A stretch of 51,434 bases of DNA from assembly GCA_029211095.1 (NCBI GenBank), contig JARGFS010000003.1, forward strand, positions 1 through 51,434, given 5' to 3'. A program made the translations under genes and the position numbers. Shown in pieces: positions 6,013 to 37,413 of this stretch. Each line of letters opens with the position of its first letter. Positions within the stretch are counted from its first letter, which is position 1. The notes beneath the pieces were generated by a model, which made no database searches, was not told where the DNA came from, and worked only from the letters and a program-made list of their open reading frames with translations. The DNA is from a bacterium. Its GTDB lineage: Bacteria > Zixibacteria > MSB-5A5 > GN15 > FEB-12.

Positions 6013-6157
6013 GTTACACCTCCAGAACAACTGGTTAGAGAAGATTTCTGCTTTCTGAAGGGGATTACACCAATGAGACGAACTTCTTCCCATATTTGTG
6101 CACAGGCAAGGGATGGTTTCTTGTAAGTTAAGTGACAGGAATAATTTACGGACACAA

Positions 6158-12103: not shown

Positions 12104-12115
12104 CGGCTAAATTGA

Positions 12116-12478
12116 ATGATTGTCAAACTTACCAAGAATTTCAGCTTTGAGGCATCGCACCGCCTCGACCATCTTCCCGAAACTCACCCCTGTTACAACC
12201 TTCACGGCCATTCCTATCGTGTCCGGGTTGAGGTAACTGGCGAAGTAAATGAGCAGACCGGCTTTCTTTTGGACTACGCCGATCTCAAAGCGGCCATCCA
12301 GCCGGTTATCAAAATGCTGGACCACAAGCATCTCAATGACATTGAAGGACTCCGGTTGACTTCGACCGAACATCTGGTCAAGTGGTTGTGGGACCGGTTA
12401 AAACCAGATCTGCCAATTCTCAGCAAGATCACGATTTTTGAAACGGACTCAACCAGCTGTGAATATACCGGCGAGTAG
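12116..12478 (+). CDS. queD: 6-carboxytetrahydropterin synthase
   Basis: 'FSFEASHRLDHLPETHPCYNLHGHSYRVRVEVTG' PTPS/QueD motif. Confidence 0.96.
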   Translation: MIVKLTKNFSFEASHRLDHLPETHPCYNLHGHSYRVRVEVTGEVNEQTGFLLDYADLKAAIQPVIKMLDHKHLNDIEGLRLTSTEHLVKWLWDRLKPDLPILSKITIFETDSTSCEYTGE

Positions 12479-19724: not shown

Positions 19725-19878
19725 TCTTAACTCATTGCTTGGGTAGTGGTTAGCATGTCTCAATATGAACCAGAGAAATGATTTCCGCAACGGAAAAGAG
19801 CTTTGTAAAACAAGGCCTTTACCGCCTAAATCCGGCGGTAAGCTTAAGAAGCAGAGCGGTTTTCCGATAGTTGCTATA

Positions 19879-22800
19879 ATGGAAACTTCTCGGCTCAAAA
19901 TCGTCATATTGGCTCTACTGACAGTGGTTTTCCCCGCCTCGGCCGGGGCTACCAACTACTATGTCTCGCCCACCGGCTCCGATGCAGCCGATGGACAGAC
20001 CATATTGACTCCATGGCTGTCAATTGAGAACGGTGAAAAAACCGGCGTGCTGGCTCCGGGGGATTCCATCTTTGTTCTGTCCGGTTCCTACAGTCGCACT
20101 ACCGGCGCAAGTTTTCCAACCTCTGGTACGGCTGTCGCTCCCATCGTTTATACTTCACTGGGGAAAAAAAGGCCACTCATTGACTTTGGAAACAGTGGCG
20201 ATGTGGCCATAAGTCTGGTTGGGAACCATATCAATTTTAAGAACATTGCAATCACCAATGGAAATAACAGCGGTATTGAGATTGTCGGTGATTCCATTTA
20301 TCTGTTTGGATGCCAAATCAGCGGGTTCTCGAAACAAGGTATTCGGGTTCTTGGCAGCTATAATAAAATTGTCGCCAATGTCGTCAATGCGGTCGGAGAC
20401 CGGGGGATAGAGAACGAAGACTCCGGCGAATTTGAAAACGTTTTCTACAACAACACTATCTACGGCTGCGGCAGTCACGGAATAGAATTGCACGCCAAAA
20501 TAAAAAGCAGCCGGGTCTTTAACAACATTGTTGCCGCAAATAACAATGATGGTATCAGAGGGAAAGTAGAAAATGTCTACGGTTTTAATAATGTCTGGGG
20601 AAATCTGGGGAATGACTACTCAGATGGTGCGGTCGACTCAGCCGGGGGAATATCGTTCCAGCCAGGGTTTGTAAATGTCTTATCGGTCCGTTTTGATCTC
20701 AAAAAGAATGCCAAAGAGATTAATGCCGGTCTGGATATCGGCTACCCGTTCAATGGAACGTCACCCGATATGGGAGCTTACGAAAAATATAACAACTACT
20801 TTGTGAGTCCGGATGGCAACGATCAAAACAGCGGACGGCATCCTGATTCGGCTTGGTTATCAATCGATAACGGTGATTCAACCCTCTTTCCCGGTGACAC
20901 TGTATATGTTCTGGCGGGAAACTATAGTAACCCGGTTTCAATAACTGACAGTGGGACTGTTGACGAAGAGATCTTCTATGTTGGCGTGTTGGATTCTGTT
21001 ACAATTGACGGCACGGGAAATTCAGTCACGGTCAGGATTTCCGGAATGTGTATCAAGTGGTATGGAATCGACATAGCGTCATCGACAACTGCGAATATTG
21101 AGATCAGCGGCTCCAAAAACAGACTCGAGAATTGTGATATATCCAATTGCGATCTGTATGGGTTGCTTGTTACAGGTAACGAAAATACCATACAACAAAA
21201 CCGGATTTTTGGAAACCAGAACTCAGGGCTACTGATTTCAGGCAATGAATGTATTGTTTACAACAACAGTTTTTACAACAATGCCCTGTTCGGAATAGAT
21301 GCTTTAGGGAGTACGCTTCATCAGTTCGTCAATAACATCATCAGCGGTTCGGCAACTTCGACCGGTGTAAGAGCGGATGGAGGCAGCCTGCTGTCTTACT
21401 CCATACTGCACAATCTAACTACTCCTTTCACTGGAGGACTATCTGTCTCATCTGATGTGACTTATGATGATCCCCTGTTTGTGGATGCTCCTGGAAGTGA
21501 TTTCAACCTCGGCTCCTTTTCTCCGGCAATTGATGCAGGCGTTGATGTTGGTTTGCCATATAACAACAGCGATCCGGATCTGGGTGCTATCGAAACTGGT
21601 GTTCTGGCTGTTCTTCAAATCAGTCCGGTTATCGATAGTCTGATCTCTGACTCAACATATCAGTTCGATGTTGTTGCCCTGGATTCATCCGGTCTTCCCG
21701 CCGATCCCGGTTTAATAGTCTGGTCACACACCTTCTCTTCAGGTGTGATCAGTTCCGGTGGACTTTTTACACCGGACAAGATTGGGTCCGGAGTGGTAAC
21801 GGTCCAATCTCTGTCCTACCCGGTCAATGGTTCCTCCGCTGTAATGACAGTAGTTCCGGGCGCTTTGTCATCTTTGTCAGTTTCTCCCGATCAAGATACT
21901 GTTTCGGCAGATTCCACCCGGCAGTTTGTGGCTACCGGAATTGATATCCACGGGAACAATACCGGTCTGGTTGGTGACTTGACCTGGTATGTGCTTGGCG
22001 ATATCGGAACCATTGACAGCGGCGGTCTTTTTGATGCCGGTCGGGTCGGGTCTGGACGTATTAGTGTTGTCAGCAGTCTTGGTGCAAGTGGAACGAGCGA
22101 TTCAATTGTAGTGACACCCGGAGCGCTTTCCATATTGTCAGTATCCCCCCAGGCGGCCATTGTAGTACAGGCCGAATCTCAGGCATTTGCTGCCTCCGGG
22201 CTGGATAGTGACTCCAACTTTATTTCTGATCTGACGGACGGCTCTGTCTGGACGACCAGCGATCCGGATGGAAGCGTTGGTGGTTCCGGGACATATACGG
22301 CGGGGAATATTGTATCGTCCCCTTATTACTATGTCAAAGCAACCGATGGAGTCCGGTCGGATTCCGCGCAAATCACCGTCATTGCCAGTGGTGACCTGAC
22401 TCATATCAGAATAGAACTGGCCGATCACTCGGTGGTAGGGGATACAACTCTGTCCTCGGATAACGACAGTACCATTCTCTATGCCCGGGGATATGATGCC
22501 GGATGGACCTTGATAGGTGATCTGGTGGTCGACTGGACCATAACCGGTGTTGATACCATAGGCTCCCTGACAAGCAGTAATGCTCCGCAGACAAATCTCA
22601 TCCTGACAACTCCCGGCCAGTCAGTTGTTCAAGCTACCTACTCCGGCTCCCTGACTGATTCAACGGGACTGATTACCTGCCAGCCGGGTGTGGCGAGCGT
22701 GATGACGATTGTACCTGATACCATGACTCTGACCGCCGGGGAAACTTTCGACTTTGATGTCGTGGTAACGGATGCCGATGGCAACACTCCGGGATTGAGT

Positions 22801-25800
22801 CTGGTTCCGGCGTGGGCACTGCTTGGGGATATTGGCAGTATGGAATCTTTCGGGCATTTTTCGGCATCGACCGTCGGCACTGGGCGGGCGGTGGCCGCGG
22901 CCGGTGGGTTAGCAGATACCTCCGGAGCCATTAACGTAGTGGCAGGAAGTCTTACCAGTCTAATGGTTGTGCCGGACTCAGCAGTGATCCCGACCGACAG
23001 TAGTTTACAGTTTTCGGTCGCGGGATTTGACCTCTTTGGCAACGAGCAATCGACCGGAAATATCACCTGGTCCTTGACCAGTCCTGTCGGCGTGATAGAC
23101 TCCACCGGTTTTTTTGTCCCGACTTCAACAGGTATCACGCAGGCTATCGCCGTCTCTGAATTCGGACCGATTGACACCTCCGCCTATCTTGAAGTCACGC
23201 CCGGCCGATTGGCATTGCTTACAATTAACCCGGACCTGGTGAACATGGTTACCGGAGATAGTCAGAACTTCACTGTATCGGGGAAGGATGCCCTTGGTTA
23301 TTCCACAGCCGTGGGTGGTGTCTCCTGGTCTGTTACAGGAGGCATTGGCGACATCACCTCCTCCGGTTTGTTCACCGCAAGGTCCATTGGTAGTGGACAG
23401 ATTGTGGCTGAAAGCAGCATTGGTGGAGTGACAGATACAAATAGCGCTGTCGTTGTGGCGGCGGGAGTGCCAACCAGACTGTCGATCTCCCCGGATGAAA
23501 TCATGCTGGCGCTGGGAGACTCAACAGATTTTTCCGCCCGCGCATTTGACGAATACTTCAACGAGGTTAGTCCTGGAGAACTCTCCTGGTCCGTTGTCGG
23601 AGCAATTGGTTCCATAGACAGTCTGGGGAGATTCCAGGCAGAATCTGCCGGGACAGGACGGATTGCCGTACACAGTTCCAGTTTCGGGCTGTATGACAGT
23701 ACTTCGTCGGTAGTGGTCGAGGCGTTAACGGTGGCCTCGCTTCCGCTTGGAGATCGGGTCGTCCTGGCCGGTCAATCTGACATTGACATACTAAGATTCC
23801 AGGTCAACAATCTGTACTCGGTTGGCAAGGGGGTCGAAGGTTTCCGTTTCCGAATGCAGAGTACCGGTGCCGGATCAGACGCGGAGATGCTTGCAAATTT
23901 AGACTCGCTCCATCTCTATCGTGAGTCAGTTTCAGACAGTCTGCTGGGCAGCGCTGTTGTTGACAGTGACACCAGCCTGATGATATTTTCATCGCTGACT
24001 ATTCCGATGCTTGACAGCCTGACTTTTTCTGTCCGGGCCGATGTCAGCAGTTTCCCTCATGATGGAGACTTCGCCGATCTCCTGATGATTCCGGCTCTGG
24101 ATGTTGTTAGTTCCGATGGATCAGCAGTGGCCGGTACCGACAGTCTCAATTCCCTGGGACAACTGCTGTTCGACGGACTTACTCGGAGTCAGATTACTCT
24201 TACTCCGGTGGGCCTTGATTCCATAATGCTGACTGACAGCATGTACGCCATAATGATTATTGATATTCCCCGGAACGGCTATGCAGGCGATACTCTGGAG
24301 TTGATCAGTGTTGTCGTGGATACGGCTCTTGGCGGCACTGTCAGCGATCAGGATTTTGACTCGCTTGTCATCTATTCCGACAACGGGGATGACATCTGGA
24401 ACGGAGCCAGTCTGGAGCAGAGGTTGGGCGTTCTGGTTTTCACCGGCAATCGATGGATAAGAAGCGGGCTCTCGTATGAGTTGATCAATCCGCTCAATCG
24501 GCTGTACGTTGCTGCGGCTCTCTCGGCGCAGCCCACACGAGGTGCCGTAGTCGCCTTTGGGATTCCTCTGAATGGGATTCAAGTTACTTCGAACAATGAC
24601 GGCCCTATTGACTATCCGGTTGGAGCCGTTGACAGTATTGTGATAGCCACTTCCGAATCGTTCGCCGTTTCTGTCATCAAGGGGGAGGTTCAGCTCCTTG
24701 TACCCGGCGAACTGTCGGGCGCGCTGACGACCATTGAATTGATAAACAACTTCTATGATCCCTACCAGTTGGACAGCCTCATTTTTGATCTGGAAATCTC
24801 TTCCATTTACCCGGAAACACAGGGGATCAAGGATTCGCAACTGGACAGCCTTCTGCTGGTGGTTCATGACATCTCCGATATTAATCAGCTCGGTTCCCAG
24901 GGAACAGTTGTTTCATCAACATTCCCGATTGACGGTGTGGCTGCCTTTGACTGCCATAACCTGACCCTTGCGGGCGCTGGGAGTCCAGTCTACTTGAGTG
25001 TTCAAGCGGCGGTAAGTCTGGAGTCGGCCAGAAACGGCAATCTCGTCAGCCTCTCGCTTCCGGATTCAAGCAGAATTGTGCTAAGCCCCTCAACGAGTAT
25101 TGAGGCAACTTATCCGCTTCAGGGTACGCTTGGGCATCAGATCGACCGGTTCCCGTTGGCGTCCGCAAGCGCCTATCAAATGGGGAGCCAGACAATCTTT
25201 GGCGGACAGACCCGGCTGCCTGTTTTCGAATTCAGATTGCCTGGCGATGGATACTCTGTAGACAATTTGCGTTCCATCCGTCTGGCCAATCGCGGGAGTT
25301 TGAACGATGGTGCCGCCCTGACCGGAGTGAGCCTTTGGTATGACTGGGAGGAGGACGGACTTACAGCCAATGACTCGCTGGTGTCAACCCTGAGCTATGA
25401 ATCCGGCGAGTGGACTGTTTCCGGAGTCGTCAGAACCATACCTTCGGAAGGGAGCCGTTTTATTGCCACTGTTGATGTTGGCAACACTCAGTTCCTGGCC
25501 GGTACTCTGGAGTTTGTTCTGCCTGTGGGCGGGGTCACCTATTGGTCCGGGGCGGATGGTCCGGATGATGGAGAGTTGGGGAGTCAGGAGAGTCATTTTT
25601 TAATACCGACCGATCGCGTGACGGTGATTTCGTTACAGGGGGAATCGGGTGAAGTGTACCCCGGTGCCACCATTGACCAGCTGCTGACTTTCGCTTTATA
25701 CAATGGGTATGCAGCCACCGATACGCTCTCTATTGAGGCGATAACGTTTACCAACATCTCACGCTCTCAGTCCGGACGTGACTGGGCGGACAGTTCTCTG

Positions 25801-28800
25801 GCCCAGGTCTCACTATACTTTGATTCTGATCATAATCGTCTCTTTGATGAAAGTGACAGCCTGATCGGAACCGGGTACTTTGCCTCCGGTCAATTGAAAA
25901 TGAACGGCCTCAGTGTAAGTCTTCCACCGGAGGAAATAAGTTCATTTTTTGTGTCAGCGGAGCTTTCACTGGCCCAAATAGATCTGGACAGTCTGGCGAT
26001 TTCAATTGAGCAGGCCTCAGACTTTGTTTTTGCCGATACCGGATCAATCTCAGTTAATGGAGACCTCCCGCTGACCAGTGGTGGCTGGAACATAGTTAAC
26101 GGTTCCGTTTCGGATCAATATGAAATGAGCGGATTGCCGCCTACCTCGGTCACTCCGGGAGATACGGCTGTCCTCCTGATGGTATTCAGACCGGCCAGCA
26201 ACGGTGACCGCATAGATACGCTGACTTCGATCACCGTGGAGAACGCTAACACGACCAATGTTGCCAGTGGTGCGGACATATCCAATATGAATCTCTGGAT
26301 GGATATGAATGACAACGCGCTGTATGATTCATCAGACAGTCTGATCGGTTCCTTGAGTTTTGGCGCCTCTCAGCATTGGATCAGCGCTGCCCTGGATTGT
26401 GAGATCGGGCGGACACCACCAAGATTGCTGTTGGTGGCCGATATATCTTCCGGCGCTACTCCGAACCGCCAGTTCCGTGGAAAAATTGTCACTAGCGGTT
26501 GTGGCTACCGGTCGTCAAACAATGGTCCCCTTGATCAGCCCCTGCTAAGTGACCGCCAGGTGACTATTTCAAACGCCGCGCTGGCTATCTCTATGCAAAA
26601 TCAACCGGAGCGCTATACAGTCGGACAAACGATTCATCATCAGCTTACCGTAACCAACAATGGGTTGATACCTCTGCTGGATGTCTCAGCTTATGCAACA
26701 GTAAGCGATTCACTGCTTCTAACGTTGGACAGCAGTCAGATCGGACCGGTGCCTCTCGTTGCAGGCGTTTCAGCCGACTTTGATTTTTATTACACCGCTC
26801 TGGATACCGGAAAAATTGTCTGGCAGTTTCAGGCAACAGCCGATGTCACCGGGGATTCCTCTGTTGTTCTGGTGACAGATTCGATAGAATTTCAGCGGGC
26901 GGTATCGGCGGTGCCGATTCAGTTCGTGAACAGCAATCCGACTTCGGTGACCAGAGGACAGCAAAATGTCTTTCCGCTTAGTTTGACGATCGCTCATCCA
27001 GACACCGATCCGATATCAGCTTCAATCCGGATAGACAGTTTGAGAATCCGGGTTGAGGATGGTTCTGGCAATGGCCGACGGGCAGACTCAACTCTCGCAC
27101 GTCTGGTACTGGCCTCAGGCTACACTAACCTCACTATTTTGGAAACCATGCCAGCCAGCGCAGATTTGTCTCTGATCTTCGGCGAACCGGTAGTTATTGA
27201 TCCTGCGCAGCAAAGAAATTTCTCCCTGCTGGTGGATATTGATAGCGCCGCCGCTGCCGGGAGTTTTGCCATCTCAATAGTAGAGAGTTCCGCAATAGTT
27301 GTGACCGATAACAATAGTTCACAGCCAATCAGCCTTGCACCCGGTCTTGTATTTCCAATGGTTACCGCCTCCTGTCGGATAGATAATCCTTCGGCCAACT
27401 TGTTATTGTCATCGGAGCCGCTCCTTCAGGCCACGGTAAATTACGGGCAGGATGATCTTGACCTGGTGCAACTACTGTTTACTCATCCGGGAGAGTTTGG
27501 AAGTTCTCCAATCCAGGTGACCTCAATGATTGTCAATTTTGTGGACAGCCTGCTCAATCCGATAAGCGCCACACATCTGCTTGAGCGTCTTCAAATCAGA
27601 CGGCAGCAAGTTATTGTGGCCGAGGTTACCAATTTTGGACCGATGGAGGATTCTGTTGAGGTCGTTCTCAATTCGCCGCTGACACTTAATCCCGGTGAGC
27701 AGGATTCACTGGCCATACGAGTCTCATTAGATGATCAGTCGTTATACAGCAACTTTGGACTTATTATCTCCGACAGTACCCGCTTTGTGGTGCGGGATTT
27801 AAGCTCCCATTCCCTGATTGAAATTACGACCGATACTTCCTTGCTGGCCACCGGTTCCGTCTTCCCCATCCACTCCGGCAGCGCCCGTTTGTTGCAACCG
27901 GCCAGTGTCGGCGAAGTCTGCCTGACAACCCACCTCCCGGATGCTGTGGTTGGGGGGAAAGATAGCCTGGCCCTGGTTGACATTACCCTGGAGTATCCTG
28001 CCACGCTCGGTCATTCCTCGGTTATGATTTTTGCCGCTGATCTCAACGTCATGGATTCACTGGGACGACCCCTGAATCCTGACCGGCTGTTTGACAGAAT
28101 CGGATATGTTGTCGACGGCCAAAACCTGACCTACCAGCCTTTTGTTGGAATTGTCAATGGTTCCGCACACTTCACCTTTGGAAGCGGTGTCCGTTTGGAT
28201 CCGGGTGAACAAAAGACAATCTCACTGGTAGGGGATATCGAAGCGGATGTGCCGTTTACGAACTTCTCCGTTTCCATACCGCAGTCCGAAGCCATGGACT
28301 TTAGAGATGCCAACGATACCAACGCTCTCCCCGGACTGGTCAGTGGAGCTTCCTGCGGTGGACAGTTCCCCTTCGTCACCAATACTGCTGATATCTTCCT
28401 TCCGGCCGGTCGACCGCTCTTTGAATGCAGGAAGCTTCCCGTACAAGTCACTGCTCCGGGTCAGGAGATGCTCAAACTGTTTGAAGGAACGCTCACGTAT
28501 GATGGCGATGGCTTGCAGGGGGATGTTTCCATTGAAGGAGTGAGCGGAAAATTTGTTCGAAGACTTTCCGATGGATGGCATACAGCCAGTCCCGGAGAGG
28601 CGCTCACAAGGATCAGCGTGATGGTGGACAGCAGTCTTGCGTGCGAGGATTCGTTACTTACCGGTGACAGTCTTCAGTTGGACTTCCCGCAGCCGCTCAG
28701 TATCAGCAGTGGCGAAAAGGTCACGGTAGAAATCTATGTCTCTCTGGAAGATAATATTCTGCTGGGAAATTACGCACTTAAATTTGATGATTCCGGCTTC

Positions 28801-29208
28801 ATCAAGCTGATCGACAAAAATATTTCAAATGATCTGTTCGCCGCCGGTAACGAGAGTTACCCCCTGTATTCGGCCGAGATTTCAGTTCTCGAAGCAAACC
28901 TCGGCGAGTCGTTTGTGAACTATCCCAATCCGTTTCACCCCTCACTGGGTGAGCAAACAACCATTGCTTACGTGCTCCCCGCTGACGCCCATGTTGATAT
29001 TGAAATATTCACTATTACCGGCAGCCTGGTCGCCCTCATCGCCGACAATCAATTCCGCAGCCAGGGGGCTCATTCCGAAGATACCTGGACCGCACTCAAT
29101 GATCGCGGACTGAAGGTGATCAGCGGAACCTACTATTGCCGCATTACGGCTCGCTACGGTTCCGGGAAAACCGAAGAAGTTCGCAGAAAAGTTGCGGTGA
29201 TCCGATGA
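19879..29208 (+). CDS. Giant (~3109 aa) secreted repeat protein: two beta-helix/choice-of-anchor-Q-like modules, ~8 Ig-like repeats, ~10 longer degenerate repeats, YPNPF-type C-terminal sorting/FlgD-like module
   Basis: ORF from 19765; likely start METSRLKIVILALLTVVFPASAGA (19879). Modules end 'SPDMGAYE' and 'DPDLGAIE'; Ig-like repeats e.g. 'LSVSPDQDTVSADSTRQFVATGID..GNNTG..GDLTWYVLGDIGTIDSGGLFDAGRVGSG'; C-term 'FVNYPNPFHPSLGEQTTIAYVLPADAHVDIEIFTITGSLV'. Confidence 0.9.
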   Translation: METSRLKIVILALLTVVFPASAGATNYYVSPTGSDAADGQTILTPWLSIENGEKTGVLAPGDSIFVLSGSYSRTTGASFPTSGTAVAPIVYTSLGKKRPLIDFGNSGDVAISLVGNHINFKNIAITNGNNSGIEIVGDSIYLFGCQISGFSKQGIRVLGSYNKIVANVVNAVGDRGIENEDSGEFENVFYNNTIYGCGSHGIELHAKIKSSRVFNNIVAANNNDGIRGKVENVYGFNNVWGNLGNDYSDGAVDSAGGISFQPGFVNVLSVRFDLKKNAKEINAGLDIGYPFNGTSPDMGAYEKYNNYFVSPDGNDQNSGRHPDSAWLSIDNGDSTLFPGDTVYVLAGNYSNPVSITDSGTVDEEIFYVGVLDSVTIDGTGNSVTVRISGMCIKWYGIDIASSTTANIEISGSKNRLENCDISNCDLYGLLVTGNENTIQQNRIFGNQNSGLLISGNECIVYNNSFYNNALFGIDALGSTLHQFVNNIISGSATSTGVRADGGSLLSYSILHNLTTPFTGGLSVSSDVTYDDPLFVDAPGSDFNLGSFSPAIDAGVDVGLPYNNSDPDLGAIETGVLAVLQISPVIDSLISDSTYQFDVVALDSSGLPADPGLIVWSHTFSSGVISSGGLFTPDKIGSGVVTVQSLSYPVNGSSAVMTVVPGALSSLSVSPDQDTVSADSTRQFVATGIDIHGNNTGLVGDLTWYVLGDIGTIDSGGLFDAGRVGSGRISVVSSLGASGTSDSIVVTPGALSILSVSPQAAIVVQAESQAFAASGLDSDSNFISDLTDGSVWTTSDPDGSVGGSGTYTAGNIVSSPYYYVKATDGVRSDSAQITVIASGDLTHIRIELADHSVVGDTTLSSDNDSTILYARGYDAGWTLIGDLVVDWTITGVDTIGSLTSSNAPQTNLILTTPGQSVVQATYSGSLTDSTGLITCQPGVASVMTIVPDTMTLTAGETFDFDVVVTDADGNTPGLSLVPAWALLGDIGSMESFGHFSASTVGTGRAVAAAGGLADTSGAINVVAGSLTSLMVVPDSAVIPTDSSLQFSVAGFDLFGNEQSTGNITWSLTSPVGVIDSTGFFVPTSTGITQAIAVSEFGPIDTSAYLEVTPGRLALLTINPDLVNMVTGDSQNFTVSGKDALGYSTAVGGVSWSVTGGIGDITSSGLFTARSIGSGQIVAESSIGGVTDTNSAVVVAAGVPTRLSISPDEIMLALGDSTDFSARAFDEYFNEVSPGELSWSVVGAIGSIDSLGRFQAESAGTGRIAVHSSSFGLYDSTSSVVVEALTVASLPLGDRVVLAGQSDIDILRFQVNNLYSVGKGVEGFRFRMQSTGAGSDAEMLANLDSLHLYRESVSDSLLGSAVVDSDTSLMIFSSLTIPMLDSLTFSVRADVSSFPHDGDFADLLMIPALDVVSSDGSAVAGTDSLNSLGQLLFDGLTRSQITLTPVGLDSIMLTDSMYAIMIIDIPRNGYAGDTLELISVVVDTALGGTVSDQDFDSLVIYSDNGDDIWNGASLEQRLGVLVFTGNRWIRSGLSYELINPLNRLYVAAALSAQPTRGAVVAFGIPLNGIQVTSNNDGPIDYPVGAVDSIVIATSESFAVSVIKGEVQLLVPGELSGALTTIELINNFYDPYQLDSLIFDLEISSIYPETQGIKDSQLDSLLLVVHDISDINQLGSQGTVVSSTFPIDGVAAFDCHNLTLAGAGSPVYLSVQAAVSLESARNGNLVSLSLPDSSRIVLSPSTSIEATYPLQGTLGHQIDRFPLASASAYQMGSQTIFGGQTRLPVFEFRLPGDGYSVDNLRSIRLANRGSLNDGAALTGVSLWYDWEEDGLTANDSLVSTLSYESGEWTVSGVVRTIPSEGSRFIATVDVGNTQFLAGTLEFVLPVGGVTYWSGADGPDDGELGSQESHFLIPTDRVTVISLQGESGEVYPGATIDQLLTFALYNGYAATDTLSIEAITFTNISRSQSGRDWADSSLAQVSLYFDSDHNRLFDESDSLIGTGYFASGQLKMNGLSVSLPPEEISSFFVSAELSLAQIDLDSLAISIEQASDFVFADTGSISVNGDLPLTSGGWNIVNGSVSDQYEMSGLPPTSVTPGDTAVLLMVFRPASNGDRIDTLTSITVENANTTNVASGADISNMNLWMDMNDNALYDSSDSLIGSLSFGASQHWISAALDCEIGRTPPRLLLVADISSGATPNRQFRGKIVTSGCGYRSSNNGPLDQPLLSDRQVTISNAALAISMQNQPERYTVGQTIHHQLTVTNNGLIPLLDVSAYATVSDSLLLTLDSSQIGPVPLVAGVSADFDFYYTALDTGKIVWQFQATADVTGDSSVVLVTDSIEFQRAVSAVPIQFVNSNPTSVTRGQQNVFPLSLTIAHPDTDPISASIRIDSLRIRVEDGSGNGRRADSTLARLVLASGYTNLTILETMPASADLSLIFGEPVVIDPAQQRNFSLLVDIDSAAAAGSFAISIVESSAIVVTDNNSSQPISLAPGLVFPMVTASCRIDNPSANLLLSSEPLLQATVNYGQDDLDLVQLLFTHPGEFGSSPIQVTSMIVNFVDSLLNPISATHLLERLQIRRQQVIVAEVTNFGPMEDSVEVVLNSPLTLNPGEQDSLAIRVSLDDQSLYSNFGLIISDSTRFVVRDLSSHSLIEITTDTSLLATGSVFPIHSGSARLLQPASVGEVCLTTHLPDAVVGGKDSLALVDITLEYPATLGHSSVMIFAADLNVMDSLGRPLNPDRLFDRIGYVVDGQNLTYQPFVGIVNGSAHFTFGSGVRLDPGEQKTISLVGDIEADVPFTNFSVSIPQSEAMDFRDANDTNALPGLVSGASCGGQFPFVTNTADIFLPAGRPLFECRKLPVQVTAPGQEMLKLFEGTLTYDGDGLQGDVSIEGVSGKFVRRLSDGWHTASPGEALTRISVMVDSSLACEDSLLTGDSLQLDFPQPLSISSGEKVTVEIYVSLEDNILLGNYALKFDDSGFIKLIDKNISNDLFAAGNESYPLYSAEISVLEANLGESFVNYPNPFHPSLGEQTTIAYVLPADAHVDIEIFTITGSLVALIADNQFRSQGAHSEDTWTALNDRGLKVISGTYYCRITARYGSGKTEEVRRKVAVIR

Positions 29209-31211
29209 AGAGATTAATTGTCATAACTCTTCTGTTGTTAAGTGTGCCCCTTTCGGTGCGGGGAGGGGAGGCTGGTACCGAAACTCCCTTTGCGATGGGA
29301 GCAGGGGCGGCCGATATATCTCTCTCCGGTTCGGCAATCGCCAGTTCCGCCGGTTGGACGGCAGCTTACTGGAACCCTTCCCGGCTGGCCTCTATTCAGC
29401 AGACGGAGTTAGGGGGATTCCACACCCGACTTTTTGATAGCGATGTTTCTTATCAGTATTTGGGCGTTGCTCACCCAACCCTGGATTGGGGAACTTTTGG
29501 TTTTGGATTGTTCCGCCTGGGGATTGGCGGAATTGAGAAGCGGGATGCATCGAACCTGTACCTCGGCGATATCGAAGACAGCCGCCTGGGACTGCTCCTG
29601 GCCTATGGTCGGGTAATATCCAACTACCGGATTGGACTGGCCCTGTCAATGGAGCACCATTCCATAGACAACTACAAGTCAACTTCATCCCCCGGTCTCA
29701 ACCTGGCTGTTTCGCGGGCGTGGGAGATGGGTGGACGAATCAGGGGTGTTACGGCCGCTCTGGTCATGTACAACGTTTTGAGCCCATCGATGAAATTGGA
29801 TAATGAAGATGTGTCTCTGCCACTCTCCACCGGGGTTGGGGTAACCATTCCAGTACAGCCGAACAGAAATTGGGATCACCTGGTTAATCTCCATCTGACC
29901 TTAAATAAAGTTGATGCGCTGCCGGCCCAGATAGCAGTCGGTGTTGAGTACAGCGTAGGCAATTTGCTGACTCTGAGAGGCGGCGCCAACGATGGAAAGC
30001 TGACCTCCGGGGTCGGACTCAAGCTTATGTCGGTCGGGTTTGATTACGCCTTTGTGGATCGGGACCTCGGCACCCTCCATATGTTCAACCTGACCAGTTC
30101 GTTTGGGAAAAGCAAATCATCCAAACGACAGGAACGAGCGGCCCGCCGGGAACGGGAGTTTAATGAATTGATGTCGCAGCAGTTAACGGCCAGCAACGAG
30201 AAGATGCTGCAGCAGCTCCTGAATCGGGGAGAGGAAGCCCTTGAAGCGGGAGATTTGGAGAAGGCTGAAAGTCAGTATGATCGGGCTCTGTTCCTGGCCC
30301 GTTCTTCCGGTTCAGATACTGCTCAAATCTATTCGACTCTCAACGAGGTTCGCGAAAGATTGAGCGAAGTCCAGCGTTTGCAGCAGTACAACGACCGTCT
30401 TGACTCCGCCCAGGTGAATCTGGCCGCCCATGATTATCTTGCCGCTCGGTACTATGCATCATTGGCTCTTGAATTTGTGGAGAATTCTGATGAGGCTCAA
30501 CAGGTCATAAAGGAAGCCGAAGAAAGCCTGCGGCGTGAGAGCTCCCGCGAGGAGCTAATCAAGCAGCGCACACTCCTTTCTGACTCACTGGTCAGCTACG
30601 GACGCACTGACGAAGCCATCAATGTTCTTATGAGCCTGGTTGAGATAGCGCCGAATGACAACAGTATCCTTATGGCTCTTCGGAGAGCCCAGTTTGAGCG
30701 ACTCCGGGCGAAAGCTTCGCAGGCCTACAGCAATAAGCGGTTGAACAGCGCTCTGGTCAGTCTGGATTCAGCCCTCGGTTACTTCCCCGGACACCAGTGG
30801 TGCGAAGAGATGAAAAGCATGATCACCGGACAGATCAAGTCGATCGACCCCGGTCAGCCAACCAGAAAGTCCGGAAAAAAGACAGTTCTGAGCGCGGAAC
30901 TGCAAAAAGAAGTGTCGGACAGTTATAAGGAGGGGCAACGATTGTTTACTTCGGGGAACATGACCGCGGCTATCGAGAATTGGGAAAAGGTGGAACGGAT
31001 TTTGCCGGACTATGCCTCGGTCCGTGAGTATCTGATCAATGCCTACAAATTTGTCGGCGTCGAGCTGTATAGCCGGGGAGAGCTTGAGGAGGCGGTATCC
31101 ATCTGGAGAAAGGCAGCCTTCCTGCGGCCGGACAACCAGGAGATTGCCGAGTACATCAAGAGAACCGAAAACGAAATAAGAAAACTGAAAGAACTATCCT
31201 ATGAGCAGTAA
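29205..31211 (+). CDS. PorV/PorQ-like (UPF0164-type) outer-membrane beta-barrel protein with C-terminal TPR region
   Basis: Start MKRLIVITLLLLSVPLSVRG (29205) overlaps upstream stop (ATGA). 'FAMGAGAADISLSGSAIASSAGWTAAYWNPSRLASIQQTELGGFHTRLF'; TPR-like helical repeats from about residue 330. Confidence 0.8.
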   Translation: MKRLIVITLLLLSVPLSVRGGEAGTETPFAMGAGAADISLSGSAIASSAGWTAAYWNPSRLASIQQTELGGFHTRLFDSDVSYQYLGVAHPTLDWGTFGFGLFRLGIGGIEKRDASNLYLGDIEDSRLGLLLAYGRVISNYRIGLALSMEHHSIDNYKSTSSPGLNLAVSRAWEMGGRIRGVTAALVMYNVLSPSMKLDNEDVSLPLSTGVGVTIPVQPNRNWDHLVNLHLTLNKVDALPAQIAVGVEYSVGNLLTLRGGANDGKLTSGVGLKLMSVGFDYAFVDRDLGTLHMFNLTSSFGKSKSSKRQERAARREREFNELMSQQLTASNEKMLQQLLNRGEEALEAGDLEKAESQYDRALFLARSSGSDTAQIYSTLNEVRERLSEVQRLQQYNDRLDSAQVNLAAHDYLAARYYASLALEFVENSDEAQQVIKEAEESLRRESSREELIKQRTLLSDSLVSYGRTDEAINVLMSLVEIAPNDNSILMALRRAQFERLRAKASQAYSNKRLNSALVSLDSALGYFPGHQWCEEMKSMITGQIKSIDPGQPTRKSGKKTVLSAELQKEVSDSYKEGQRLFTSGNMTAAIENWEKVERILPDYASVREYLINAYKFVGVELYSRGELEEAVSIWRKAAFLRPDNQEIAEYIKRTENEIRKLKELSYEQ

Positions 31212-32787
31212 TTCCAGTGATGTCCTCCAGCAGGAGTGGCCGCAATCGTCGGAGTTTAAAAAATCGATCCGGATGGAGTTCTCCATATATATCTCTTCCA
31301 TGATTTTCCTCCTTATGATCATTGCCGGATCGGTCATTATGGATAGATATGTTGATTCGGTTACGCAGGCAGCGGCTGACAAACTTCTGGTACAGGCCCG
31401 TTCCTATTCCGGACCGGCGGGGAAGTTGATCATCTCAACCACCGGACCGGATGCGTTGCTACTTAACAATATCTGTAAGAAACTGGCTGCCGACAACTCG
31501 GACATTATATGGGTTGCTATTACCGGCCGCGAAGACACTCTTTTGGCTCATACCGATATTTCCAAAGTGGCCAAGGGGGGAAGTCTGACTCCGGTAATTG
31601 GGGGAGAATACCCCTCGCTATTGAGAAACGGAGAAGGTTTCAAGTTAGCTGATGAGACTATCAACATCTCTGTTCCTATTGCCGAAGGCGACGTCAAGAT
31701 TGGGCACCTTCACCTGTCTTCATCGGCAGCAAAAATCTCTGAGGCGCGACAGGACTCCATTGTCGCGGTGGCAACGATTTCGGTACTGGCTCTTCTTCTG
31801 GGTCTGCCTCTTATTATGATCGGGCTGCACCGAAAACTCAAACCGATCAGTACGATTACCGATCACCTCAAGGATATCAGATTTGATAACATTCAATTGG
31901 ATATCCCGGTTACCGGCCGCAATGAACTGGGCTACCTGGCTGAGACTCTTCGGGTCATGGGGGGAAAACTAAACGCCGCTCAGAAAGAGATGATTGAGGC
32001 TGAGAGGATTTCCCGCGAGTTTGAAATCGCCCGGGAGATTCAGTCCAGCATGCTTCCTTCGGCCATCCCGACCAACGATCATTACAGTTTCACCGGCTTC
32101 TATCGCAGCGCCAAGGAAGTGGGGGGAGATTACTACGATTTCATTAAACTAAGCGATACCAAAGTTGCCTTTCTGGTGGCCGATGTATCAGGAAAATCGT
32201 TGCCGGGCATGCTGGTCATGCTATTGACCAGAGATATTGTCAAGAAGCATTGCTACCGAACGCATGATCCGGTCTCGCTGATATGCAAAGTCAACCAGGA
32301 ACTGCTGGCTAACATCAAGAAGGGTATGTTTGTAACCATGTTCTATGGTGTGCTGGACTATTCAACCGGAACTTTCAGTTTTGCCTCGGCCGGGCACAAC
32401 CCTCTGATAGTTATGAACGATCACCAGGCGCCGCGCCTGATTAAGACCAAGGGATTCCCATTGGGAATGGTCCCTCCGGACCAATTTGACCGTCGGATAG
32501 AACGGGGCGAGATTGTTCTGAAGCCTCATGACTGGTTGGTCCAGTATACCGATGGTGTAAATGAAGCTCAGAATCAGGACCACCGGGAATATGGAATGGA
32601 TCGGCTGGTCACCCGGTTGCACAACTCTGTTATGTTCGGCCCGGAACAGATGATTGATGCAATTGTGGCAGATCTTGATCAATTTGTAGGTGAACAGCCA
32701 CAATTTGATGACATCACCCTGATAGCTATGAAATTTGGTTTGAAATCTGTCGATAGTAATTCTATGAAGAAGGAAGTGTGCTATTAA
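31201..32787 (+). CDS. Membrane PP2C-type (SpoIIE/RsbU-like) serine phosphatase with HAMP-like region
   Basis: N-terminal TM, HAMP-like 'LKPISTITDHLKDIRFDNIQLDIPVTGRNELGYLAETL', 'AREIQSSMLP...EVGGDYYDFIKL...VADVSGKSLPGMLVM', 'FDDITLIAMK'. Overlaps upstream stop. Confidence 0.92.
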   Translation: MSSNSSDVLQQEWPQSSEFKKSIRMEFSIYISSMIFLLMIIAGSVIMDRYVDSVTQAAADKLLVQARSYSGPAGKLIISTTGPDALLLNNICKKLAADNSDIIWVAITGREDTLLAHTDISKVAKGGSLTPVIGGEYPSLLRNGEGFKLADETINISVPIAEGDVKIGHLHLSSSAAKISEARQDSIVAVATISVLALLLGLPLIMIGLHRKLKPISTITDHLKDIRFDNIQLDIPVTGRNELGYLAETLRVMGGKLNAAQKEMIEAERISREFEIAREIQSSMLPSAIPTNDHYSFTGFYRSAKEVGGDYYDFIKLSDTKVAFLVADVSGKSLPGMLVMLLTRDIVKKHCYRTHDPVSLICKVNQELLANIKKGMFVTMFYGVLDYSTGTFSFASAGHNPLIVMNDHQAPRLIKTKGFPLGMVPPDQFDRRIERGEIVLKPHDWLVQYTDGVNEAQNQDHREYGMDRLVTRLHNSVMFGPEQMIDAIVADLDQFVGEQPQFDDITLIAMKFGLKSVDSNSMKKEVCY

Positions 32788-33551
32788 TGACTGTTGATTA
32801 CACAAAAAAGAAGATGCTCACATTGCCGGTAGAGATCGGATTTGAACATCAGCAGGAGTTTATCTCCAAATTGAAAGAGTCTGTCAGGCAGACTGAGCAT
32901 GATCTGCTTGTTGACTGTTCAAAAGTTGAACAGGTTACTTCGACCCATGTGAATATGCTCTGGAGAGCCTATTCGCTCTGCAAAGATTACGGTCTCAAGA
33001 TGACCTTGTGCAACCCTACCGAGGGCGTCATTCGGGTCCTCAACGCGCTCGATCTTGGCGACATGTTTTTTATCGAGCAAGGTCTGAAAGACTCAACCGG
33101 CGGGCAGACCAAAGCAACCGAATTTGCAGGTTTGGATGACAGCCTGGAACTGGAAATCAAACTTGAATCCAGGCAAATATCTCTGGGGCTAAAACGTCTG
33201 CAGGAGTTTTTGAGGAGAGTCTCCATCGCTCCCGCCATCCTGGTGGAGATAGAGACAATCTTCTACGAATTAGCTACCAATATAAATCTGCATAGTGGTC
33301 TTTCTAACGGCGATAGTCTGCATTGTTCTGTGGTACTAACTGACAAGAGAGTTACCCTGACCTTTGTCGATGCCGGGGTTCCGTTTGATCCCTCCTCTGT
33401 CGAAGTCGGGTACGATCCCAAGTCTATGATATCAAATTACAAGAAACGCGGACTGGGGCTGGTGATGATTCAACGGATGGCAGATTCTATCAGTTATGAA
33501 CGACGGAATGGCCAACAGAACGTTGTTACGGTTACGAAAGACGGGAGATAG
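32787..33551 (+). CDS. STAS domain fused to RsbW-like HATPase_c (anti-sigma-type serine kinase)
   Basis: ATG at 32787 inside upstream TAA (TAATG). N-term STAS-like 'HDLLVDCSKVEQVTSTHVNMLWRAYSLCKDYGLKMTLCNPTEGVIRVLNALDL'; C-term 'ETIFYELATNINLHSG' N-box and 'GLGLVMIQRMADSISYER' G-box. Confidence 0.85.
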   Translation: MTVDYTKKKMLTLPVEIGFEHQQEFISKLKESVRQTEHDLLVDCSKVEQVTSTHVNMLWRAYSLCKDYGLKMTLCNPTEGVIRVLNALDLGDMFFIEQGLKDSTGGQTKATEFAGLDDSLELEIKLESRQISLGLKRLQEFLRRVSIAPAILVEIETIFYELATNINLHSGLSNGDSLHCSVVLTDKRVTLTFVDAGVPFDPSSVEVGYDPKSMISNYKKRGLGLVMIQRMADSISYERRNGQQNVVTVTKDGR

Positions 33552-33554
33552 CCG

Positions 33555-33893
33555 ATGTCAGACAGTACCATAGTTCAGCAGCAGATTGATGACCATTCTC
33601 TCAACATTAAGACTTCGGAAGTTCTCGATAATAGCAATGCGCACGAGATGATTGAAGTGTTGACCGAGGCACACCAGAGAGGAATTGAAAACGTCACAAT
33701 TGATATGAGTGATCTCTGTTTTATCTCTTCCGCCGGAGTCGGGTCTATCCTTGGTACGGTTGAGCTCTTTCGTGAAACGGGTGGAGATATCCATCTTTGC
33801 AACCTGAGACCGCCCGTGACCCATGTGCTCGAAGTGCTTGATCTGACTGACTATCTGACGGTGCAGAGCGAAGTGAAGGAAGCTGTTGACTAA
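33555..33893 (+). CDS. STAS domain protein (anti-sigma factor antagonist-like)
   Basis: 'NVTIDMSDLCFISSAGVGSILGTVELFRETGGDIHLCNLRPPVTHVLEVLDLTDYL'; candidate phospho-Ser in DLCFISSAG. Confidence 0.93.
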   Translation: MSDSTIVQQQIDDHSLNIKTSEVLDNSNAHEMIEVLTEAHQRGIENVTIDMSDLCFISSAGVGSILGTVELFRETGGDIHLCNLRPPVTHVLEVLDLTDYLTVQSEVKEAVD

Positions 33894-33906
33894 ACAGTCA
33901 TCTTGA

Positions 33907-35583
33907 GTGAATGGAATGACACCAGAAACAAGACAATTTATAGACAACTACACCGGCGATGAGCTCTCCTTCAAGCGCAATATGATGGCTCTTGATGCTC
34001 TGTCCAAGCTGGCCCGCCGTTTCTCCAACCATCCCGATCTGCAGCACCTCTCTTCATTGCTGCTGCTCACCCTGGCCGGTCAGTTTTCAATCAGCAGTGC
34101 CTTTGCTCTCTACTGTGACCCCAGCCTGTCTGAGTCCGGTTTGGCCTATATGGGACTGGGTAAATTTATGGACCACTCGGACCTGAGAGAGATTACCATC
34201 CCCGATTGTATACGTGAACATTTTGTCTCTCACCCGGACCCGGTTCAAGTAGACGAATATGAATCCATGGTAGCGTGCCAGGAGATAAAGGAACTGTTGG
34301 TAGCCAATCAGGTTAAGGTTGTAGTCCCGCTAGTGCATAAAGATGGTTTGATTGGCATCCTCGGTCTCGGCGAGAAAGTTACTAAAAAAGAGTTTGAAAA
34401 TAACGACCTGGAGATTCTGAGTACGCTGGCGCATTCCCTCACTCCCTTTATCTCCAACTCAATACTTTTCAGGGAGCTGTCCGACCTGAATTGCTGGTAT
34501 GTTGACATCCTGAGTTCAGTCAAGCAGGCTGTTCTCATCTTTGATAGTGACTATCGATTGAAACTGGCCAATCTCTCTGCTGCCAGCATTTTGGAAAAAC
34601 TACGCGAAGATGCCGCTGTCATTGGCAACAATAAGCCAACCATTGACGAGCTATTCTCCCAATCAGCCTTTCCCGGTTGGTCAAGCCGTATCAAAAACGC
34701 CCACATTCTGGGAGCAGCCGGAACACTTGAAAATCTGGTTGCCTGCGTTGGGGAGGACGAGCTGATTTTCAATGTCCGGACGGGCAGTTTCAAAAGAGAC
34801 AACCGCTCAGAGTTCGACATCTTTGTTACGCTCGATGACGTCACTGACCAGAAGGCGAGTGAGCAACGTCTTTTTGAGGTAGAGAAATTTGCTGAAAAAG
34901 GAGTTATGGCCTCAACCATCTCCCATGAATTGAATAACTTCCTCGGCCTCATCCTGGGTGGAACAGAACTGGCCGGTATGGCTCTGGCCAAAGGGAACAC
35001 CGAGAAGGTCGCCGCTACCCTGGAAAAGATCAAAAAGAACGTCGGAAAGATGGAACGGTTCACGGCCGGATTGGTCGACTATACGCGGCTGAACACTAAG
35101 AAGAGTGAAACGAATCTCAACAGTGTCATAACCGATGTGTTATCGTTTGTTGCCGTTCAAAAGAAATTCACTCGTATTGCCATTACCACGGAACTGGCCA
35201 AAGAAATTCCTCCCTTTGTTGTCGATGCCGATCAGATGTCACAGTTGATTATGAACCTGGTGAACAATGCCGCCGATGCCATCATAGATTCCCGCAAACC
35301 GACCAGGAAGATAGCCGTCTCAACCAGATTTGAGAACGGGAATGTTATCCTGGAAATATCGGACAATGGAAAGGGGATTGATCCGGAACTCAAGGGTAAA
35401 CTGTTCAAAGCTCACTTCACTACCAAGGAAAAAGGGCATGGCTACGGGCTGGTCACCTGCTCAAAAATCATTGATAACCACAAAGGGAAAATTGAGATTG
35501 AATCCGAGGTTGGCCAGGGGGCTACTTTCAGACTCTCCTTCCCGGTTGATCAATCAGTCGAGTCACAGCCCTCGGCCGTCTGA
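33907..35583 (+). CDS. GAF/PAS sensor histidine kinase, no receiver domain
   Basis: GAF-like N-term; H-box 'ASTISHELNNFLGLILGGTELA'; N-box 'QLIMNLVNNAADAI'; 'EISDNGKGI', 'TTKEKGHGYGLVTCSKIIDNHKG'. Confidence 0.92.
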   Translation: MNGMTPETRQFIDNYTGDELSFKRNMMALDALSKLARRFSNHPDLQHLSSLLLLTLAGQFSISSAFALYCDPSLSESGLAYMGLGKFMDHSDLREITIPDCIREHFVSHPDPVQVDEYESMVACQEIKELLVANQVKVVVPLVHKDGLIGILGLGEKVTKKEFENNDLEILSTLAHSLTPFISNSILFRELSDLNCWYVDILSSVKQAVLIFDSDYRLKLANLSAASILEKLREDAAVIGNNKPTIDELFSQSAFPGWSSRIKNAHILGAAGTLENLVACVGEDELIFNVRTGSFKRDNRSEFDIFVTLDDVTDQKASEQRLFEVEKFAEKGVMASTISHELNNFLGLILGGTELAGMALAKGNTEKVAATLEKIKKNVGKMERFTAGLVDYTRLNTKKSETNLNSVITDVLSFVAVQKKFTRIAITTELAKEIPPFVVDADQMSQLIMNLVNNAADAIIDSRKPTRKIAVSTRFENGNVILEISDNGKGIDPELKGKLFKAHFTTKEKGHGYGLVTCSKIIDNHKGKIEIESEVGQGATFRLSFPVDQSVESQPSAV

Positions 35584-35631
35584 GTTTTCTGGAGATCGCT
35601 TTTCTTTCGTATAGGGAGACTCTGTCCCTGC

Positions 35632-37413
35632 TCAAAAGGCGGGACAGTCGGTTGGAGCGGGCCCGCTGCCAAAAATATAATCCACCAGGTAGGTCAAATC
35701 ACTGATATTGAGCTCTTCACCCGAATCACCGTTGCTGTTTGATTCCAGCGGACAGGCCGGTTCCGGTCCTCCACTAAAGAGATACTCCACCAGATAAGTG
35801 AGATCGGTGATACTGATTTCATCGAGCGGATCACTGTCGACATTGCCGCGCTGCCCCCGGCAGCAGGAAGGAGGGAGGCCGACATAAAGATCGGCCAGCA
35901 GACCGGCCGGGTCACAGGAAGTTGATTGAATAACTATTTTGACTTCAGTATTGCTTCCATCGTACGAAGTTGCCGAAGGCGCCGACAGGCTGTCAAAGGT
36001 CCCGCCCAGCCAGAGGTCTCCCGGCGAGTTATCTTCCATCCCGTCAAACTCTTCCAGATCGACCCAGCGATGCAAGTCATTCGAATTAGTTGAGCGGCTG
36101 TCGTCAATATGCCAGATGGCCGCGCCGCAGCCCGGGATGAGAGAATCAAATCCTATCTGCCTTCGGTATTCCAGCAGGAAATATTCATTTCCGCCAGCGC
36201 CGCTATTCCAGAGCTTGTATACCGCTTGATTCTGCTCTACATCCACCAGGGTTTCATCCCACAGATCAACTCCAACATTAATGGGGGTCAGCCAGTTCAG
36301 GCGGTCTTTGCACCAGGCGCTCAGATGGGCCGGTACAGCGCCAGCTCCGTTCCAGGTTCCTCCGGCCATATTGCACCAGGAACCAATCCCGTTACTGCTG
36401 CCATCGGTATCATACAAATCCGGCAGGCCCAGGGCATGTCCGTACTCATGGCAGAAGACGCCGATCGTTGAAATCCCGGACCAGAGCATTTCCGGCTCCA
36501 TAGTGTAGCCGTTGATTGTCTTTCCATCGGCAACCACCGCCGGCAATCCGGCACAGGTAAAGCACCAGGCGTGTGACCAGGGATAACCATTGTTACCTGT
36601 TTCCGCTCCCGGTCCGGCGTGTACTACAAAAAGCCCGTCCACGTTGCCATCGTTGTCATTGTCAAAAGGAGCAAAGTCAACTCCGGCATTTTCAGCCGCT
36701 ATGACCGCCTCCCGCGCCAGTTCAGCCGAGGCTCCCCAATTACTACCATCATTGTACCCATAATAGGAACGATTGTGCGAAGCTGTGTACCAACCAACGA
36801 CAATCCCGTTAACCCCAAACTGGCCGTATGAGACTTCCTGGAAATAGTCATTGACACTCCCATACTCGTTAAACCCGACCCGGTTCATTAGTTCATCAAA
36901 GTTGTCGGTGGAGAATACGGTATCTTCGTCCGGGAATTTTACCATGATGACCAAAATGTCAGCAATACTCAATATCCGGCTGTCGCCGTTGGTTGAGGTC
37001 AAATCAAATTGGTCAAGTCCCTCAAGAGTGGGGACCAATCGTTCCGCATTGGCCGCCAGTCTTTTCGGATACTCATTGGGGTCGGTTGATTTACTGACTA
37101 TCCCCCGGACAGAATTCGTGACTCGCTCTTGTGAGGGCTGCAAATTCCCCTGTTCATCCAGAACGGCATAACAATACCAGCCCTGGCTGTCCCGGACGAC
37201 GGTGTAGTCTTCCATTGTCACATAGCGGCCGTTTCGCTCATCACCAATCGGTCTAAATTCCAGAATCGTTCCATCAGGCTGGGTAACCTCAAAGGTCTCG
37301 CCTTGATAAGCGGGGACAGCCGAAGTTGTGGAGGCAAGAGAGACAAAAAACAGCGATAGGGCTGCAAAGAAATATGAGAGTGGTTTCCTGTTAGGTCCGG
37401 CGGGCTGTCTCAA
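35632..37413 (-). CDS. Secreted M6-family metalloprotease with dockerin-like C-terminus
   Basis: 'FCHEYGHALGLPDLYDTDG' zinc motif; dockerin-like 'ISITDLTYLVEYLFSGGPEPACP' and 'LNISDLTYLVDYIFGSGPAPTDCPAF'. Confidence 0.92.
   Translation of the reverse strand: MRQPAGPNRKPLSYFFAALSLFFVSLASTTSAVPAYQGETFEVTQPDGTILEFRPIGDERNGRYVTMEDYTVVRDSQGWYCYAVLDEQGNLQPSQERVTNSVRGIVSKSTDPNEYPKRLAANAERLVPTLEGLDQFDLTSTNGDSRILSIADILVIMVKFPDEDTVFSTDNFDELMNRVGFNEYGSVNDYFQEVSYGQFGVNGIVVGWYTASHNRSYYGYNDGSNWGASAELAREAVIAAENAGVDFAPFDNDNDGNVDGLFVVHAGPGAETGNNGYPWSHAWCFTCAGLPAVVADGKTINGYTMEPEMLWSGISTIGVFCHEYGHALGLPDLYDTDGSSNGIGSWCNMAGGTWNGAGAVPAHLSAWCKDRLNWLTPINVGVDLWDETLVDVEQNQAVYKLWNSGAGGNEYFLLEYRRQIGFDSLIPGCGAAIWHIDDSRSTNSNDLHRWVDLEEFDGMEDNSPGDLWLGGTFDSLSAPSATSYDGSNTEVKIVIQSTSCDPAGLLADLYVGLPPSCCRGQRGNVDSDPLDEISITDLTYLVEYLFSGGPEPACPLESNSNGDSGEELNISDLTYLVDYIFGSGPAPTDCPAF

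Follow-up and report, generated by a model that had tools for sequence, protein, structure and literature searches.

The window analyzed here is a stretch of 51,434 nucleotides (nt; contig JARGFS010000003.1) from a 3.05-Mb Zixibacteria-type metagenome-assembled genome (MAG). Its positions 19879-35583 hold an operon of six tightly coupled open reading frames (ORFs), in which the genes for a giant surface protein and a PorV-like outer membrane protein are followed by a partner-switching module and a histidine kinase. The analysis is based throughout on sequence, predicted fold and gene conservation, and the six-gene block was found to be a real, conserved, all-or-none unit within Zixibacteria. 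Our preferred reading, held with moderate confidence, is that the operon forms a self-contained branch of a type IX secretion system (T9SS)-like pathway, in which a cargo and its dedicated shuttle, inherited together with a partner switch and coupled to it in translation, would serve the signal-controlled display of an adhesin-like protein or a report on that display. The six genes and the evidence for their assignment are:

19879..29208, + strand: giant secreted surface protein, 3109 amino acids (aa) (Pfam, hydropathy, conservation by region)
29205..31211, + strand: PorV-like barrel with TPR extension (PorV-TPR), 668 aa (NF033709, AlphaFold2 (AF2) model, PDB matches)
31201..32787, + strand: membrane sensor PP2C (SpoIIE) phosphatase (SpoIIE, transmembrane segments, Asp motifs)
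32787..33551, + strand: STAS-HATPase fusion (HATPase_c_2, STAS, conserved N-box)
33555..33893, + strand: stand-alone STAS protein (STAS domain, alignment)
33907..35583, + strand: cytoplasmic histidine kinase (HATPase_c, conserved H and N boxes)

The coordinates and junctions of these ORFs agree with a first-pass annotation of the window, and its domain assignments were upheld by Pfam and NCBIfam searches of each operon protein.

Conservation and Co-inheritance of the Operon

The co-occurrence search covered 133 genomes of the phylum. About a quarter of them (35) contain an orthologue of PorV-TPR with at least 39% identity. A profile of the last 100 residues of the giant yielded 34 matches of at least 132 bits in 33 genomes, the next-best tail of the phylum scoring 70.6 bits and the second-best tail of the source genome 58 bits. 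Similarly, a profile of the STAS-HATPase fusion yielded 35 full-length matches of at least 148 bits in 34 genomes, followed at 68 bits by a match to the HATPase part only. Both sets of genomes are subsets of the 35 with PorV-TPR, and the missing members (the tail in G079 and G096, the STAS-HATPase in G081) all fall at contig ends or a scaffold gap. Three marks of different genes are therefore present or absent jointly.

Conservation of the gene order had been set beforehand as a test of the operon, and the order giant, PorV-TPR, PP2C phosphatase, STAS-HATPase, STAS, histidine kinase was found wherever the contig permits. The flanking genes differ in nearly every operon-bearing genome; the conserved block therefore consists of the six genes. 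The sole clear departure from this order is L061 (G027:C1:3477940-3482216), a second, diverged copy without the kinase gene and with a giant of 1876 aa. Two apparent losses were rejected as 100-N scaffold gaps: that of the switch in G026 (L056), where the missing half was found at C1:60-64 kb, and that of cargo and kinase in G079 (L076). In another locus of G027 (L054, 10739-11387), the giant is frameshifted approximately 650 nt before its end with the tail still encoded, which is probably a sequencing or assembly error. The PorV-TPR tree intermixes taxonomic families, and a single clade for family f4 was rejected (p-AU 6e-44 in the approximately unbiased test), a pattern compatible with a block that was transferred or differentially lost. 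A scan of named genomes with a single peptide pattern returned only Zixibacteria-type MAGs, and the named relatives are mostly MAGs of Candidatus Zixiibacteriota or candidate division GN15.

The close coupling of the genes begins with the junction between giant and PorV-TPR:

29205..29208, + strand: ATGA stop/start overlap of the giant and PorV-TPR genes (conserved in relatives)

This overlap was found again in nearly all evaluable orthologous loci. The PorV-TPR and phosphatase genes overlap by 11 nt, the junction between phosphatase and STAS-HATPase reads TAATG (with the STAS-HATPase ATG at 32787 and an alternative GTG start at 32778), and gaps of 3 and 13 nt precede the STAS and histidine kinase genes, respectively. 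The frame of the giant is open from an ATG at 19765; the signal peptide begins at the ATG at 19879, which was taken as the true start, and the automatic caller picked an upstream start in three other loci, as in the window. Separate promoters or terminators would likewise have counted against the operon; a consensus scan for terminators, whose sites were not enriched over shuffles, revealed no terminator-like site on the + strand at the internal junctions of the operon, and the sole site near a gene end is:

35571..35590, + strand: weak stem resembling a terminator, with a T-run, where the last gene ends (scan site 35571-35584; not enriched over shuffles)

The Giant Cargo Protein and Its Tail

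Two regions of the giant stand out in an alignment of 21 giants:

23665..28905, + strand: conserved co-linear stalk, aa 1263-3009, ~1750 aa (alignment occupancy at least 0.86 from aa 1263, 0.29-0.73 before)
28906..29205, + strand: putative private C-terminal sorting tail, 100 aa, predicted seven-strand immunoglobulin (Ig) fold (alignment, AF2 model, match to the C-terminal domain (CTD) of PorU, phylum search)

The protein begins with a predicted signal peptide (hydropathy peak at aa 4-27, sequence METSRLKIVILALLTVVFPASAGA) and has a beta-helix and Ig-like N-terminal head, matching the Pfam families Beta_helix (55.9 bits) and Big_2 (22.5 bits). The last 1850 residues or so of the aligned giants are co-linear, with the tail as their most conserved part, and the N-terminal heads are variable, being mostly beta-helical and in other cases Big_9, DUF11, cadherin-like, DUF7483 or laminin-G-like. 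Such a layout may point to an adhesin whose tip varies.

The tail was modeled with high confidence (pLDDT 96.3) as a seven-strand Ig domain like the type A signals of T9SS cargo. The PorU CTD (6za2, TMq 0.75) is found within its ten best structural matches, and the PorU C-terminal signal is also its best, though weak, sequence match in the PDB (E 0.011). Scores for the T9SS signal model TIGR04183 are marginal with respect to the curated cut-off of 23 bits (23.6 in the genome search, 24.7 for the isolated tail and 17.8 in whole-protein mode). The profile search of the phylum identified no other protein carrying the giant's version of the tail. Translocation of the giant through SprA would be dependent on this tail.

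A cysteine at position 78 is invariant in all 29 tails, further shared cysteines of the giants are located near positions -285, -430, -612 and -904 from the C-terminus, and a cysteine at aa 533 in the TPR part of PorV-TPR is nearly invariant. These residues might form disulfides. SprF is known to be anchored to GldK by a disulfide, for which it uses a CxC motif in its periplasmic C-tail (PMC12635249). Given that location of the SprF site, an anchoring of this kind was retained for the tail and TPR cysteines as a lead.

The PorV-like Carrier and the T9SS Machinery

PorV-TPR was modeled (pLDDT 83.7) as a barrel up to residue 300 that is followed by a TPR superhelix:

29274..30104, + strand: PorV-like barrel domain, aa 24-300 (model strands at aa 67-300)
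30114..31205, + strand: TPR superhelix, aa 304-667, presumed periplasmic (model helices at aa 304-667; TPR_11 39.8 bits)

The two solved structures that it matches best are PorV chains, 8gl6_F (E 1.4e-10) and 6h3i_F (E 9.7e-9), one of which stems from a translocon complex with bound RemA CTD. With PorV chains top-ranked, the predicted fold confirms the PorV assignment of the first-pass annotation, and the cargo-carrier pairing proposed there proved stronger than suggested because the tail is private to the operon. As supported by co-occurrence, PorV-TPR probably recognizes and binds this tail, and we propose that it acts as a dedicated cargo shuttle. Stretches of ~100 aa with 37-43% identity to the C-terminal TPRs of PorV-TPR were also observed in other proteins (G055:C146, G037:C186, G068:C314 and G042:C184), all of them in operon-bearing genomes.

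The literature cited here describes the T9SS in Bacteroidota, where a single PorV shuttle handles every type A cargo and PorXY-SigP acts as regulator. All type A signals are recognized by PorV, and type B cargos have dedicated PorP/SprF shuttles that are often encoded next door (PMC12618676). Type A CTDs are held inside the SprA pore by SprA and by the extracellular loops of PorV, and the lipoprotein SprE/PorW, which has TPR motifs, lies on the periplasmic side close to PorV (PMC10994853, PMC8754138). Absence of T9SS-like machinery would have counted against the reading of the first-pass annotation, yet such machinery exists: SprA scores above the cut-off of 200 in 124 of the 133 genomes, with 338.7 bits in the source genome. 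In the latter, PorU-like fragments (286.7 bits on a truncated contig; PorU cut-off 420) and about 36 type A-like tails were also found. Another giant open frame there (3156 aa), located on a different contig (G000:C230:1138-1377, - strand), carries an ordinary tail of the type A-like kind.

The Partner-switching Module and the Histidine Kinase

The phosphatase matches SpoIIE (151.9 bits) and, below the cut-off, HAMP (18.8 bits). Hydropathy predicts transmembrane segments at aa 23-42 and 184-212 around an extracytoplasmic domain of ~140 aa, followed by the HAMP and SpoIIE parts; this sensor domain matched no Pfam family. The metal-binding Asp motifs of PP2C enzymes (ADVSGKSLPG, TDG and DDiTL) are conserved. 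The STAS-HATPase fusion (HATPase_c_2 56.6 bits, STAS 41.3 bits), whose full-length form is confined to operon genomes, has a conserved N-box (FYExxTNIxxH); in its STAS domain the Ser is kept and the usual Gly is mostly replaced by His. It is proposed to act as kinase or anchor of the switch. The stand-alone STAS protein (Pfam STAS 58.1 bits) shows an SSAG phosphoserine motif in nearly all orthologues, the phosphosite of which we take to correspond to Ser58 of SpoIIAA. The histidine kinase matches HATPase_c with 84.0 bits and HisKA and GAF below the cut-offs. Its H and N boxes are conserved and its N-terminus is GAF-like; it has no receiver domain and no transmembrane segment as judged by hydropathy. 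Two other families have a hybrid form of the kinase, with a receiver domain at the C-terminus (L067:574-3579, which also has an extra GAF domain, and L071:1532-3667).

A Paralogous Sister Locus

Most genomes of the phylum encode a PorV-TPR paralogue, with about 23-32% identity. Seven of these sister loci were fetched (L079-L085), and PP2C and STAS genes follow PorV-TPR in six of them, L082 having other genes at this place. The genes of L085 run from a cargo with T9SS-like tail through PorV-TPR, a HATPase-sCache-HAMP-PP2C fusion, STAS, GGDEF and Poly_export to Wzz. The sister locus of the source genome is split between two contigs (G000:C96:1-4547 and C103:1-4035; L077 and L078) whose ends share a short phosphatase stretch, and it comprises a cargo tail, PorV-TPR, HATPase-PP2C, STAS, GGDEF and a polysaccharide-export protein. 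Most of the next-best matches to the STAS-HATPase profile of the window are the HATPase of the sister-locus fusion. The window operon is therefore best regarded, we infer, as the second version of a cassette that is core to Zixibacteria, a version with patchy distribution. The position of the sister-locus cassette beside diguanylate cyclase and polysaccharide-export genes suggests a control of the sessile state.

Proposed Mechanism

In the proposed mechanism, the operon would produce a giant with a signal peptide and a type A-like tail that is, by profile search, unique in the phylum, and, from the next gene, a predicted PorV-fold outer membrane protein with a TPR superhelix that appears only together with this private tail. 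The giant would exit through SprA, be pulled out by PorV-TPR and remain surface-bound as an adhesin-like fiber. The four switch and kinase genes, which have apparently intact catalytic motifs and are co-inherited with the giant and PorV-TPR, would act as follows. An envelope signal, possibly the loading of the shuttle as sensed via the periplasmic TPR arm, would set the activity of the phosphatase; phosphatase and HATPase kinase would together set the phosphoserine of the STAS protein, which would then switch its partner, and the histidine kinase would contribute a cytoplasmic input. The output may be transcription of the operon or, as the paralogous core locus suggests, a sessile or matrix program. 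The switch probably controls or reads out the display of the giant; it may act on synthesis, export or release of the protein. A more specific version, which we consider rather unlikely, is a display-and-report device, in which the periplasmic TPR arm would signal export and loading of the giant, or a pull on it, directly to the extracytoplasmic domain of the phosphatase, such that the switch would read surface attachment.

Several observations weigh against this T9SS-like branch. PorV-TPR scores only 66.5 bits with the NCBIfam model PorV_fam (NF033709) and thus misses its cut-off of 90, for which reason the protein is named PorV-like. Models of the GldL/GldM motor gave no match in 21 genomes, in which the controls were equally silent. 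The six-gene operon itself contains no sigma factor, receiver or GGDEF protein. Finally, the correlation of evolutionary rates that could speak for a contact between the TPR arm and the phosphatase sensor ranks first of 28 pairs but is weak (partial r 0.28, 5-95% range 0.05-0.52; equal-length subsamples, uncorrected).

Alternative Explanations

A classical sigma-type switch, in which the STAS-HATPase would be the anti-sigma factor of an unlinked sigma factor and the module would regulate only its own operon and leave export untouched, is possible though doubtful. Distant matches to RsbW/SpoIIAB and to anti-anti-sigma models point in this direction, as does the precedent of Rsb/Spo partner switching (reviewed in PMC8256260). 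However, as stated in the first-pass annotation, no sigma factor adjoins the operon, none being present in it or in its conserved surroundings, and the closest paralogous cassette has a GGDEF gene after it. This latter arrangement instead favors a cyclic di-GMP (c-di-GMP) or biofilm switch of the SiaABCD or HsbRA-HsbD type, which is likewise a tentative possibility; here, the STAS protein would activate an unlinked diguanylate cyclase, and the giant would be a matrix adhesin. In the core paralogue, that of C96/C103 in the source genome included, genes for a GAF/GGDEF protein and Wza/Wzz-like proteins come after STAS, the operon phosphatase matches a SiaA-like model (42.3 bits), and precedents for such switches exist (PMC7647112, PMC5085249), whereas the operon carries the histidine kinase in the place of a GGDEF protein.

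It is very unlikely that PorV-TPR is a transporter of the FadL type that has nothing to do with secretion, and its companion tail an ordinary FlgD-like Ig domain. FadL and TodX are indeed among the structural matches, and the tail matches FlgD_ig of Pfam weakly, but translocon PorV leads TodX/FadL by more than four orders of magnitude in E-value, the tail alone passes TIGR04183, resembles the PorU CTD and co-occurs only with PorV-TPR. A plain FadL identity was rejected on the basis of this structural ranking. Finally, a chance adjacency of two unrelated transcription units (cargo and carrier; switch and kinase), for which the diverged copy L061 without kinase gene and the evolutionary rates of the kinase, least correlated with those of the tail, could be cited, is dismissed as highly improbable in view of the gene overlaps, the fixed order amid different flanks and the joint presence or absence over the 133 genomes.

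Comparison with Known Systems

The preferred T9SS-like branch resembles the PorV/type A pathway of Bacteroidota in the PorV fold (8gl6, 6h3i), the seven-strand Ig-like C-terminal signal and the presence of SprA in the genome. However, the Bacteroidota PorV serves all type A CTDs, while the operon pairs a TPR-extended PorV-like protein with just one cargo, whose tail is private. A giant surface protein with its cognate outer membrane carrier encoded directly downstream is also found in the type B pair SprB/SprF, served by PorP/SprF proteins (PMC12618676); in contrast, the tail of the operon is type A-like, its carrier is PorV-like and a signaling module is linked to them. A CTD-bearing surface protein is tied to signaling in the case of PorA, which interacts with PorV and passes a surface signal to PorXY-SigP (PMC7712824). 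That system uses a two-component system, PorX and an extracytoplasmic function (ECF) sigma factor, whereas the operon has a PP2C/STAS/HATPase switch and a histidine kinase beside the cargo.

The switch itself shares the PP2C phosphatase, kinase and STAS-like phosphoprotein with SiaABCD and HptB-HsbR-HsbA-HsbD of Pseudomonas aeruginosa, the latter being fed by a histidine phosphorelay. SiaABC and HsbA-HsbD govern biofilm formation and c-di-GMP (PMC7647112, PMC5085249). Unlike these systems, the operon has no diguanylate cyclase, which is present in its paralogue, and includes cargo and carrier genes. A partner switch linked to secretion, as proposed here, is exemplified by BtrUVW of Bordetella, which influences type III secretion and hence a different secretion system (PMC8256260). 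RsbUVW and SpoIIE-SpoIIAA-SpoIIAB have the phosphatase, the STAS antagonist with phosphoserine motif and the GHKL kinase in common with the operon, but the operon kinase bears a STAS domain of its own and the operon includes no sigma factor. To our knowledge, BtrUVW is not encoded together with a cargo-carrier pair. The known precedents are each separate, and it is therefore the window that combines a type A-like signal, a PorV-like carrier, one-to-one gene pairing and a carrier-fused TPR. A literature search identified no paper joining three or more of PorV, SpoIIE, STAS and type IX secretion.

Neighboring Genes in the Window

Convergent with the operon, the window encodes an M6 peptidase (35632-37413, - strand) with a dockerin-like C-terminus that has no Pfam match, and flanking genes similar to this side of the window adjoin the operon in four other genomes. 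Elsewhere in the window, a YfbK-like VWA protein containing carboxypeptidase-regulatory segments and others weakly similar to a TonB plug is encoded at 3886-6093 (- strand), and a likely queuosine-precursor cluster (QueC, radical SAM and a QueD-like protein of the PTPS family), followed by an M1 peptidase, is located at 10646-12478 (+ strand).

Implications

Outside Bacteroidota, the operon offers a case in which a PorV-type carrier apparently serves only one cargo, a giant with a private tag, and is co-inherited with a PP2C/STAS/HATPase switch. It thereby provides a testable case in which the shuttle for a type A-like signal would be cargo-specific, and it links surface display in a new way to a phosphorylation switch. 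If the display-and-report version were true, it would represent a dedicated mechanosensory or export-status branch of the T9SS, whose sister branch in nearly all Zixibacteria would drive c-di-GMP and polysaccharide functions. The near phylum-wide sister locus, which ties the cassette to c-di-GMP and polysaccharide genes, provides a lead on how the surface-attached state may be controlled in uncultured Zixibacteria.

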